A stretch of 64,000 bases of DNA from Paracoccaceae bacterium. Its GTDB lineage: Bacteria; Pseudomonadota; Alphaproteobacteria; Rhodobacterales; Rhodobacteraceae. This document shows, piece after piece, positions 32,817 to 40,495 of the stretch. Within the stretch, counting starts at the first letter, position 1. Each line of letters starts with the position of its first letter. Position numbers and translations under genes: made by a program. The notes beneath the pieces were generated by a model, which saw nothing but the letters and a program-made list of their open reading frames with translations, searched no databases and was not told the DNA's origin. Where the stretch lies: the NCBI GenBank assembly GCA_030148225.1, contig JASBTX010000009.1, forward strand, positions 1 to 64,000, read 5' to 3'.

Positions 32817-33953
32817 TCAGGTTTCGTACCTTTGGCTGAACTCAGCGCGGATCGCGTCGGTATGTTCCCCCAGCCGTGGCAATGGCTTTGCGGTGTCGCC
32901 GGTCGCCGATGCCTGTCCCGCCGGGCGCGGTACGGACACGGTTGCGCCGGTATCGAGCCTGACATCCAGACGGCGGAGTGCCGGATGGCTGCCCAGTTCG
33001 CTGACCGCGGTCTGACGGGACCATGCGATGCGCGCCGCCGCGCAGCGTTCTGCGGCCTCGTGGCAGGTCATCGCGGCGAATGCGGGCGAAATTTCCCGAT
33101 CCAATGCTTCGCGATGTACCACCCTGAGCGGATTGGTGGCGAAATCGGGATGATCGGCCAGATCGGGGCGGTGCAGCGCATCGCGACAGAGTGACTGCCA
33201 TTCTGCCGCTGTCTGTACGGCAATCAGAATGGTGCCATCGGCACAGTCAAAAGGCCCGTAGGGATAAATCACCGCATGGGCCAGCCCGTGGCGACCGGTT
33301 TCGATGCCGCCCTGCTCATGATGCAAAAGCGGCACCGCCATCCAGTCGGCCATAACGTCAAACATTGGCATCTCGATATGCTTTCCCCGCCCGGTCTGTT
33401 CGCGTTCGATCAGCGCCTCCAGAATGGCGGCATAGGCGTTCGAACCGGTGGCGATATCCGCGACCGAGACACCAACCTTGGACGGGGTGTCCGGCGTGCC
33501 GGTGACGGCGCTGACACCGCTTTCGGCCTGAACGAGAAGGTCATAGGCCTTCATCCCCGCATAAGCTGTGTCCTGACCATAGCCGACGATCGAGGTTACG
33601 ATCAGACGGGGATATTCACGCGACAATCGGGCATCGTCAAACCCAAGGTGTGACAACGCGCCCGGAGCCAGATTGCTTACAAGGATATCTGCACGGGCCA
33701 GCATCCGCGCCAACAGCTTGGCATCGTCATCTGTTCTCAGGTCCAATACAGCGCTTTCCTTACCCCGGTTGAGCCAGGTGAAATGCGCCGATGTGCCCTG
33801 TACGGCGGCATCATAATGGCGCGCCGTCTCGCCACCCGGGCGCTCGATCTTGATAACGCGCGCCCCGGCATCGGCAAGGCGCAATGTGCAAAGCGGTGCC
33901 GCAACGGCCTGCTCCAGCGATATGACAAGCCTGCCTTCCAGCGGGGCCATCAA
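32817..33953 (-). CDS. CaiB/BaiF-family (class III) CoA-transferase
   Basis: MMAPLEGRLVISLEQAVAAPLCTLRLADAGARVIKIERPGGETARHYD...FTWLNRGKESAVLDLRTDDD. Confidence 0.9.
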   Translation of the reverse strand: MMAPLEGRLVISLEQAVAAPLCTLRLADAGARVIKIERPGGETARHYDAAVQGTSAHFTWLNRGKESAVLDLRTDDDAKLLARMLARADILVSNLAPGALSHLGFDDARLSREYPRLIVTSIVGYGQDTAYAGMKAYDLLVQAESGVSAVTGTPDTPSKVGVSVADIATGSNAYAAILEALIEREQTGRGKHIEMPMFDVMADWMAVPLLHHEQGGIETGRHGLAHAVIYPYGPFDCADGTILIAVQTAAEWQSLCRDALHRPDLADHPDFATNPLRVVHREALDREISPAFAAMTCHEAAERCAAARIAWSRQTAVSELGSHPALRRLDVRLDTGATVSVPRPAGQASATGDTAKPLPRLGEHTDAIRAEFSQRYET

Positions 33954-35101
33954 TATGACCTCGGCATGCCCAGCACATGCTCGGCAAGATAGGACAGGAT
34001 CAGGTTGGTCGAAATGGGCGCCACCTGATAAAGCCGGGTTTCGCGGAATTTGCGTTCGACATCGTATTCCTCGGCAAAGCCGAACCCGCCATGTATCTGG
34101 ACGCAGGCATTTGCCGCCTCGAATGAGGCATCGGCAGCCAGAAGTTTGGCCATGTTGGCCTCGGCCCCCGGGTTCTGGCCGGCCTCGTAAAGGCGCAGTG
34201 CCTCGTCGACCATCAGCGCACTGGCGCGCATATTGGCATAGGCACGGGCGACGGGAAACTGCACGCCCTGATTGGCCCCGATGGCGCGGTCGAAAACCAC
34301 CCGCTCACCTGCGTATGTCACGGATTTGTCGATGAACCACCGGGCGTCGCCCACGCATTCGGCAGCGATCAGGATACGCTCGGCGTTCATTCCAGACAGG
34401 ATATAGCGAAAACCCTTGCCTTCCTCTCCGATCAGATTTCGCGCCGGTACGCGCAGATTGTCGAAAAACACCTCTGTCGTCGCGTGGTTCATCATTGTCC
34501 TGATGGGGCGGATCGTCAGGCCATGGCCAAGGGCATCGCGCAGATCAACAAGGATCACCGACAGGCCAGCCGTCTTTTTCGCGCCTGCCTCGCGGGGGGA
34601 CGTGCGCGCCAATAGCAGCATCAGGTCAGAATGCTCTGCACGGCTGGTCCAGATTTTCTGTCCATTGATGACGAAATCATCGCCATCGCGCGTGGCCGTC
34701 GTCTTTAGCGCGCCGGTATCGGTGCCGTTGGTGGGTTCGGTCACACCAAATGCCTGCAGGCGCAGCGCACCGGACGCGATCCGGGGCAGGTATTCCTGTT
34801 TTTGTTCCGCGGACCCATGCCTGAGAAGTGTACCCATCGTGTACATCTGCGCATGGCATGCCGCGGCGTTGCAGCCTTGGGCTTGCATTTCCTCAAGTAT
34901 CGCGGCGGCGGCGGACAGGGGCAGGCCCGCGCCGCCAAATTCCTCGGGGATCAGCACAGACAGCCACCCGGCATCGGTTAGCGCCTGCACAAATTCCGTG
35001 GGATAAGATTTTGACCGGTCCAACTCACGCCAGTACTTGCCCGGAAAGTCGCTACATAGTCTGGCGATGGCGTCGCGCAGCTCCGCATAGTCGTTTCGCA
35101 T
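33950..35101 (-). CDS. Acyl-CoA dehydrogenase family protein
   Basis: LRLQAFGVTEPTNGTDTGALKTTATRDGDDFVINGQKIWTSRAEHSDLMLLLART; QIHGGFGFAEEYDVERKFRETRLYQVAPISTN. Confidence 0.92.
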   Translation of the reverse strand: MRNDYAELRDAIARLCSDFPGKYWRELDRSKSYPTEFVQALTDAGWLSVLIPEEFGGAGLPLSAAAAILEEMQAQGCNAAACHAQMYTMGTLLRHGSAEQKQEYLPRIASGALRLQAFGVTEPTNGTDTGALKTTATRDGDDFVINGQKIWTSRAEHSDLMLLLARTSPREAGAKKTAGLSVILVDLRDALGHGLTIRPIRTMMNHATTEVFFDNLRVPARNLIGEEGKGFRYILSGMNAERILIAAECVGDARWFIDKSVTYAGERVVFDRAIGANQGVQFPVARAYANMRASALMVDEALRLYEAGQNPGAEANMAKLLAADASFEAANACVQIHGGFGFAEEYDVERKFRETRLYQVAPISTNLILSYLAEHVLGMPRSY

Positions 35102-35190
35102 TCGCCGTCCCCGGTAAGATCGGCGTCAGTCTAGGCTGCGATTCCGGAAATGAACAGGCAGGGTGTGCCGGAACACTTTTGCCTTTCTGT

Positions 35191-38678: not shown

Positions 38679-38759
38679 GCGGACCTCATTCGGTGTTCGC
38701 GTCGTGGCTAGCAGAATATTCTGTCCAAAATATGGAGGTCAGGCAGCCTTGTTCTTGCC

Positions 38760-39353
38760 TTATCCCAGCATTTCCGCATGACGATCGACCATGCGTTGAA
38801 CCATCGGCGCAAAGTGCCCGAAACCGGGCGTGCTGAGTTCCGGGTCCTTGCCGGCCTCGTCAAGGTAACGAACCGCGATGATCTGCCTGAGATGGGGGTT
38901 TTCCTCGAACGCGGCTACTTCGTCAGGCTGCATCGGTCCACCCTGAAGGTTGAGGGAATGAACCGACGCGGCAGAGAGGCGCGCGAAATACTCGGGGCGG
39001 GTCGCACAGAGATATCGCTTGGCCGCCACGTGATAACGGCAGCAATCGGCGATCACGGCCGGGAAAAACCGATCCAGGATCTCGGCACCGGCATCTTCGT
39101 GATGGCGGTCCTCGGTATCTTCCATGGTGAAGGTGCCGAACGCGCTGGTGAAATGCCCGATATCATGCAAAAGCGCGCCCACGATGATTTCCTCGGGCTG
39201 TCCGTTTCTTTCGGCGATTGTCGCCCCCTGAAGCATGTGCTGGCCAATTGTCACAGGCTCCCCCAGATATTCCTCACTCCCCCGATCCCTGAATATCGAG
39301 GCGAGGTAATCGACGATGTTGTCACGATTCAGGCTGTTCATATCGGGCGTCAT
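38760..39353 (-). CDS. tmpB: HD-domain mixed-valent diiron oxygenase, TmpB/PhnZ-like
   Basis: [42 protein letters not shown]-x-G-E plus HD signature as in PhnZ; adjacent to tmpA. Confidence 0.75.
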
Positions 39354-40495
39354 TCCGCGGCCTCCCGCCCGGTGGCCGCTCGCATTGCATCAAGTGTTGA
39401 TCGCAGGCCGTCCATGTCAGAGTAACAGCCCTGCAGCCAGCGTGTTCCGGCACCCGAATAGCCCTTGCGCGCATGCAGGACGCGGGTGTTGTCGACGACA
39501 AATGCTTCACCCGGATCAAGGCGGAATGTTACCTCCATCGCCGGATCGTCGATAATCTCGGACAATCTGCGATAGGCCGCATAATATTCCTCCATCCGGT
39601 CAAAGGGCACATCCGTGATTGCCGCCAAAGAGCGGTTGTTGAAGCGGACCCCGGTCATTTCCCCGTCGGGGGCCAGTTCGATCATCGGTCGACGTGATGT
39701 CAGACAGACACCTTCTTCACCGGCAAATCGGAAACGCGCCGCGTGATCTGCGAGAATGCTGAATTTATCCGGGTCCTCGTCGCGCAGCCGCCGGGCGGCA
39801 GCAAAACCATCAACCACCATGTTTTCGCCACCAGCAGCCGAGCTTTCGAGGCAGTAAAGCACCTGCACTGTCGGAACAGGGTCGCGATAGGGGTTGTCTG
39901 TATGCGCCTGCAACCCCAGCCCGGTATAGGCCAGATTGGTGGGGTTAACGGCGGTGCGCACCTCGAAATGGCGGCCATAATTGGTCTCGCGGACAAAACC
40001 GAACAGATCGACAACGTCAAACAATGCCCCTTCGCGGACAGGCCCGTTCGCGATCTTGCCAAACCCGTATCTCGTGACATCGCCCAGCCATTGGGCCAGT
40101 GCCTCACCCCGCGCACCCAGTTCTGTGAAATCCGCTGTGGGGACATGGGACATGAGGCCGCTGTCCCAAAGTTCGATATCATCGCGTGTCCAGCCGCGCT
40201 GATCCGGCGTCGGGCGATCATAGGCATGGGCAATTAACCAGTTGATATCAAAGACGACGGTCTTGCCCTCGGGCGCGAAATTGATGTTCAGCGATGCGCC
40301 GTCAACGCTGGCCGCAGCAATTCGGGTGTCGGCGGGGATATCCCCGACCGCGATCAGGCGCTGACCGTTCGAGGCGGATCGGGTTTCGGGATCGGCGGCA
40401 TTGTCCCGCAACCAGACGGCATGAAAACGATAGCTGCCCGATGATGTTTCAAGTGTGAGGATGTTTCCGGATGTGTCACAGCTGACCTTGGTCAT
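39350..40495 (-). CDS. tmpA: TmpA-like (gamma-butyrobetaine hydroxylase family) Fe(II)/2OG dioxygenase
   Basis: [43 protein letters not shown]...[33 protein letters not shown]; overlaps tmpB. Confidence 0.75.

Follow-up and report, generated by a model that had tools for sequence, protein, structure and literature searches.

A six-gene run in a Paracoccaceae bacterium probably consists of three independent two-gene cassettes, one of which pairs a kinase-oxygenase fusion with a predicted protein lysine methyltransferase

The closest described counterpart of the first two genes of the run is the operon encoding TmpA and TmpB in Leisingera caerulea (PDB 6npb and 6npa), the known route of which ends in glycine betaine and phosphate (PMC10574752). 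Both genes, their order and their equivalog-level sequence are alike in the two organisms, whereas the operon described for L. caerulea has two genes and here tmpAB is followed by two unrelated gene pairs. The second pair includes a relative of Rickettsia PKMT1 and PKMT2 and of Acinetobacter KmtA, with family in common by profile, fold, length and AdoMet-binding Asp and His residues. According to the available portion of PMC11784438, KmtA methylates more than 130 lysines of the adhesin AtaA, Rhodobacterales sequences fall in the KmtA cluster, and there are just two reported cases of multiple lysine methylation in outer-membrane proteins; that portion makes no mention, for KmtA, of a partner such as the kinase-PhyH fusion to which the window enzyme is coupled. 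The nearest solved PhyH-family relative of this fusion is KanJ (kanamycin B dioxygenase), which has the fold and the HxD...H and Arg motifs in common with the oxygenase half but differs in that the latter is fused to an APH-like kinase. Lastly, the third pair belongs to the same superfamily as the CaiA/CaiB, SUGCT and YfdE/Frc-type CoA-transferases and acyl-CoA dehydrogenases, with a likely CoA chemistry, but it misses all curated equivalog cut-offs and lies in a non-carnitine context.

The window, that is, the whole 64,000-nt stretch of DNA analyzed, contains a run of six ORFs on the minus strand, from 40495 down to 32817, and a divergent LysR gene. Their domain content (TauD/GBBH-like, HD, APH plus PhyH, methyltransferase with PF10119, acyl-CoA dehydrogenase and CoA-transferase family III) agrees with that proposed in a previous sequence-only reading:

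40592..41443, plus strand: LysR-type regulator, divergent from tmpA
39350..40495, minus strand: tmpA, 2-trimethylaminoethylphosphonate hydroxylase (Fe/2OG), predicted from NF049936 and PDB 6npb
38760..39353, minus strand: tmpB, (R)-1-hydroxy-2-trimethylaminoethylphosphonate oxygenase (HD type), predicted from NF049941 and PDB 6npa
36753..38678, minus strand: kinase-PhyH fusion, APH-like at residues ca. 1–360 and PhyH Fe/2OG oxygenase at ca. 400–641 (PF01636, PF05721)
35191..36756, minus strand: predicted outer-membrane-type protein lysine methyltransferase (OM PKMT; PF10119, PKMT1/2 profile and fold)
33950..35101, minus strand: acyl-CoA dehydrogenase, forming its own orthologous group (PF00441/02770/02771)
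32817..33953, minus strand: CoA-transferase family III, partner of the dehydrogenase (PF02515)

The close spacing or overlap remarked upon in that reading holds, but the arrangement has more structure than claimed, because the genes form three pairs, each overlapping by 4 nt (tmpA/tmpB at 39350–39353, fusion/methyltransferase at 36753–36756, and dehydrogenase/transferase at 33950–33953), the pairs being 81 and 89 nt apart. Since no terminator-like site was found in these two gaps, the six genes could be expressed as one transcript, possibly a local, genome-specific operon. The GC content and third-position GC were alike in all six genes, which therefore carry no mark of recent insertion. Between tmpB and the fusion lies a perfect 12-bp palindrome (38712–38723), which was discarded as a signal because it is close to what chance would give (0.05 in shuffles) and other fusions do not have it upstream. 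The window begins with a lower-GC stretch and, in the segment 3611–7307 (minus strand), an integrase-like gene (6006–7307), possibly representing the edge of a genomic island.

The identity of TmpA and TmpB was borne out, both products scoring above curated cut-offs and matching the sequences of the solved structures. TmpA reached 588.1 bits with the NCBIfam equivalog NF049936 (cut-off 400) and an E value of 7e-161 with PDB 6npb, but stayed, with 401.7, under the 414.75 cut-off of the GBBH model TIGR02409; its alignment with 6npb showed that the Fe(II)/2OG residues are kept in segments HTDNPYRD and VLHAR (the HTDN motif and the downstream His). Likewise, TmpB reached 330.2 bits with the equivalog NF049941 (cut-off 300) and an E value of 2.9e-98 with PDB 6npa, keeping the HD metal and His motifs in the alignment, and remained under the cut-offs of the hydroxymethylphosphonate PhnZ model (135, cut-off 300) and of the general Phn-HD models. 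From the characterized enzymes, we infer that TmpA hydroxylates 2-(trimethylammonio)ethylphosphonate (TMAEP) and that this first cassette (lysR, tmpA and tmpB) would convert TMAEP to glycine betaine and phosphate. The LysR-type regulator is a conserved partner of tmpAB: of the 25 other tmpB loci compared, 15 have a homolog (39–63% identity) next to tmpA. In one of the 25 (L109, 9739–10311), tmpB has two internal stops and no adjoining tmpA, as expected of a decaying copy. Beyond lysR, the window contains a phosphonate import cluster (41480–49834, minus strand) with genes for PhnD, PhnC, two PhnE and a DeoR-type regulator, as well as two HAD-type phosphatases and ectoine-hydrolase-like and acetylornithine-deacetylase-like genes. 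This is followed by an ABC transporter with fused permease subunits (50187–54499, plus strand), which resembles putative 2-aminoethylphosphonate importers (TIGR03261, TIGR03262, TIGR03265), under all cut-offs.

The methyltransferase at 35191..36756 belongs to a family of protein lysine methyltransferases and not to one with evident small-molecule substrates. It contains the regulatory domain PF10119, and among solved proteins the profile search placed Rickettsia PKMT2 (E 3.5e-47) and PKMT1 (E 1.7e-45) closest to it, with similarity over the full length; the best eight Foldseek matches of its structural model (pLDDT 88.1) were all PKMT1/2 (TM 0.67–0.69), well ahead of the rest. In the alignment, D78 and H123 correspond to Asp74 and His118, which PMC11784438 names as AdoMet-binding residues of RtPKMT2; both are almost invariant among homologs. 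By sequence and modeled fold the enzyme is thus an outer-membrane-type protein lysine methyltransferase, predicted to methylate lysines of a surface protein.

Its overlapping neighbor combines PF05721 (PhyH) with a weak match to PF01636 (APH, 24.9 bits for a cut-off of 23.2), and was modeled with a pLDDT of 85.9; the PhyH half is closest to KanJ. The catalytic residues are intact: kinase residues K48, H198, D200, N205 and D218 (the Lys, HxDxxxxN and Asp) and oxygenase residues H509, D511, H583 and R594 are invariant in 13 fusion homologs. The full fusion is present in only 3 of the 397 genomes of the family, and a scan of 85,488 species retrieved 14 fusion loci, 11 from Alphaproteobacteria and three from Burkholderiales; viral collections contained no relatives, and plasmid records gave just distant PhyH matches covering no more than 39% of the fusion query. 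As far as could be found, the kinase-oxygenase fusion is uncharacterized in the literature, and our searches retrieved no description of its pairing with a PKMT. The two genes adjoin each other in 8 of the 11 alphaproteobacterial loci, none of which contains tmpAB, and in genome G115 (that of locus L064) both are present on separate contigs. Among the carriers of the pair is a cultured strain, Ahrensia sp. R2A130. The methyltransferase clade was found once in 9 of the 10 searchable alphaproteobacterial fusion genomes, and the distance matrices of both proteins were correlated (r 0.81, Mantel p 0.0004, 9 pairs). Fusion and PKMT thus co-diverge and are conserved together across several alphaproteobacterial genera.

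Genes for acidic repeat or secreted-type proteins directly flank the fusion cassette in 4/20 cases, compared to 0/95 around the tmpB and dehydrogenase controls (Fisher p 7e-4), in a test that was chosen after the loci had been seen. According to Pfam, these four cases correspond to RTX (L067), Calx-beta/VWA with RTX motifs (L069), Ig/cadherin/Hint (L071) and Hint/RTX proteins (L073). Around PKMT homologs lacking the fusion, 3/35 flanking genes were of the acidic repeat type (p 0.018). A stricter count of RTX genes within 6 kb was not significant for PKMT (4/18) or the fusion (2/11) when compared to controls (3/48; p 0.08 and 0.23, respectively). Neighbors were unrelated in 7 of 11 fusion loci, and no secreted protein was found beside the fusion cassette in the window genome. 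This genome has a second PKMT (G000 contig 16, ca. 158018–159487), after which come a gene for a 340-aa protein and then RTX/Hint proteins; in L069 and L070, homologs of the 340-aa protein adjoin the fusion. The 340-aa protein had no Pfam match and is presumably APH-kinase-like, as judged by eye from its motifs. A broader region of that contig (L210, 143500–163400) clusters the second PKMT and the kinase-like gene with three large RTX genes (two with Hint domains tested). A trimeric autotransporter was discarded as the substrate in the window genome (ca. 89% complete), where the YadA anchor was not found. Elsewhere, PKMT homologs in L219 (2994–7373) and L223 (8456–12700) are flanked by proteins that exceed 1400 residues and contain duplicated Hcp-type domains, plus RTX repeats in one of them.

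We propose, with a likelihood that we place just short of even, that the second cassette is a post-translational modification unit, the target of which would be a protein or peptide and most probably a repeat protein that is secreted. Lysines of the target would be methylated by the PKMT, while the PhyH domain would hydroxylate a side chain that the kinase domain would phosphorylate, perhaps on the new hydroxyl and perhaps in this order. Alternatively, the product or target of the fusion and the methyltransferase could be a small molecule or a RiPP-like peptide instead of a surface protein, which we consider less likely. The relationship to KanJ fits this alternative, because the substrate of KanJ is a small aminoglycoside and APH kinases act mostly on small molecules, which counts against a protein substrate. 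Additionally, a stand-alone PhyH homolog (32%) lies in L034 by genes for a lasso-cyclase-like asparagine synthetase, an HPr-kinase-like protein, an Asp/Asn hydroxylase and a glycosyltransferase, and the Burkholderiales fusions have a peptidase-type (NHLP-like) ABC exporter and HlyD in their vicinity, although these exporter matches fall under curated cut-offs. Nevertheless, the gaps around the window cassette could fit at most a tiny precursor gene, and the family of the partner is known for methylating large surface proteins (PMC11784438). The L034 region itself (6306–15647) is a possible peptide-tailoring cluster, comprising the asparagine synthetase, PhyH, methyltransferase, Asp/Asn hydroxylase, HPr-kinase-like, GT8 and GMC oxidoreductase genes.

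It could also be that both genes are encoded together only for shared regulation, the target of the fusion being unrelated to the PKMT substrates. The absence of the PKMT clade from the three Burkholderiales fusion genomes and from G425 speaks for this, but the near-overlapping genes and their co-divergence make it improbable. One Burkholderiales fusion, moreover, comes after a SET-domain gene, another lysine-methyltransferase-like family; this occurred only once (L075), and such a gene was discarded as a general partner in Burkholderiales. Returning to the modification unit, its most specific version, in which a lysine of calcium-binding repeat proteins secreted by marine Alphaproteobacteria would be methylated, hydroxylated and O-phosphorylated by fusion and OM PKMT together, is a speculation with a small chance of being right. 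Such a lysine would be chemically reminiscent of diatom silaffins, and we know of no earlier description of this modification in bacteria.

The last two genes had been read as CaiA- and CaiB-type. The transferase does belong to the superfamily, its nearest solved relative being YfdE, but not to the L-carnitine CoA-transferases (86.7 bits, cut-off 413), and the dehydrogenase scored 166.5 with the crotonobetainyl-CoA dehydrogenase model (cut-off 540); given these cut-offs, a role in carnitine metabolism was discarded. The dehydrogenase has an AER segment, the Glu of which would occupy what we take to be the catalytic-base position of isovaleryl- and long-chain dehydrogenases. Orthologs of the dehydrogenase occur in 117 of the 397 family genomes, including that of the window, with 52–83% identity to the matches, and 12 of 24 dehydrogenase loci contain a homolog of the transferase, mostly adjacent. 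Elsewhere, the dehydrogenase has as neighbors enoyl-CoA hydratase, HMG-CoA-lyase-like, MmgE/PrpD, dehydratase-like, 5-oxoprolinase-like and polysaccharide-deacetylase-like genes, which indicates that the pair participates in the general CoA-dependent catabolism of some acid. CoA transfer would activate a carboxylic acid and the dehydrogenase would then desaturate the acyl-CoA.

The four downstream genes had been proposed to extend the TmpAB pathway. Tblastn searches of the 25 other tmpB loci found only tmpA, tmpB and lysR and none of the other four genes of the run, so that synteny with tmpAB was conserved in 0/25; a lack of conserved synteny is one of the outcomes that the previous reading had named as refuting its proposal. 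The tmpB gene is present in 53 of the 397 family genomes, that of the window included, and coincides with the dehydrogenase in 14, for 15.6 expected by chance; in no family genome except that of the window are the two close together. An extended TmpAB pathway is therefore unsupported, and each of the three pairs occurs elsewhere without the others. These results indicate that the run very probably consists of three neighboring two-gene cassettes that are independent of each other, and not of one pathway; that they also have the roles proposed above is, on balance, the likelier explanation of the whole. A single operon in which the downstream genes process TMAEP-related compounds or products would suit the common strand, the tight spacing, the gaps without terminator-like sites and the phosphonate transport genes upstream, but is very improbable given the absence of this arrangement from other tmpB loci, the occurrence of the other pairs without tmpAB, the low CaiA/CaiB scores and the PKMT-like methyltransferase.

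The comparison of neighborhoods, which resolves three units here, cautions against inferring a pathway from a single tidy gene run. The fusion-PKMT pair is the most informative of the three cassettes, and offers a lead, open to direct testing, on how bacteria carry out elaborate modifications of their proteins.
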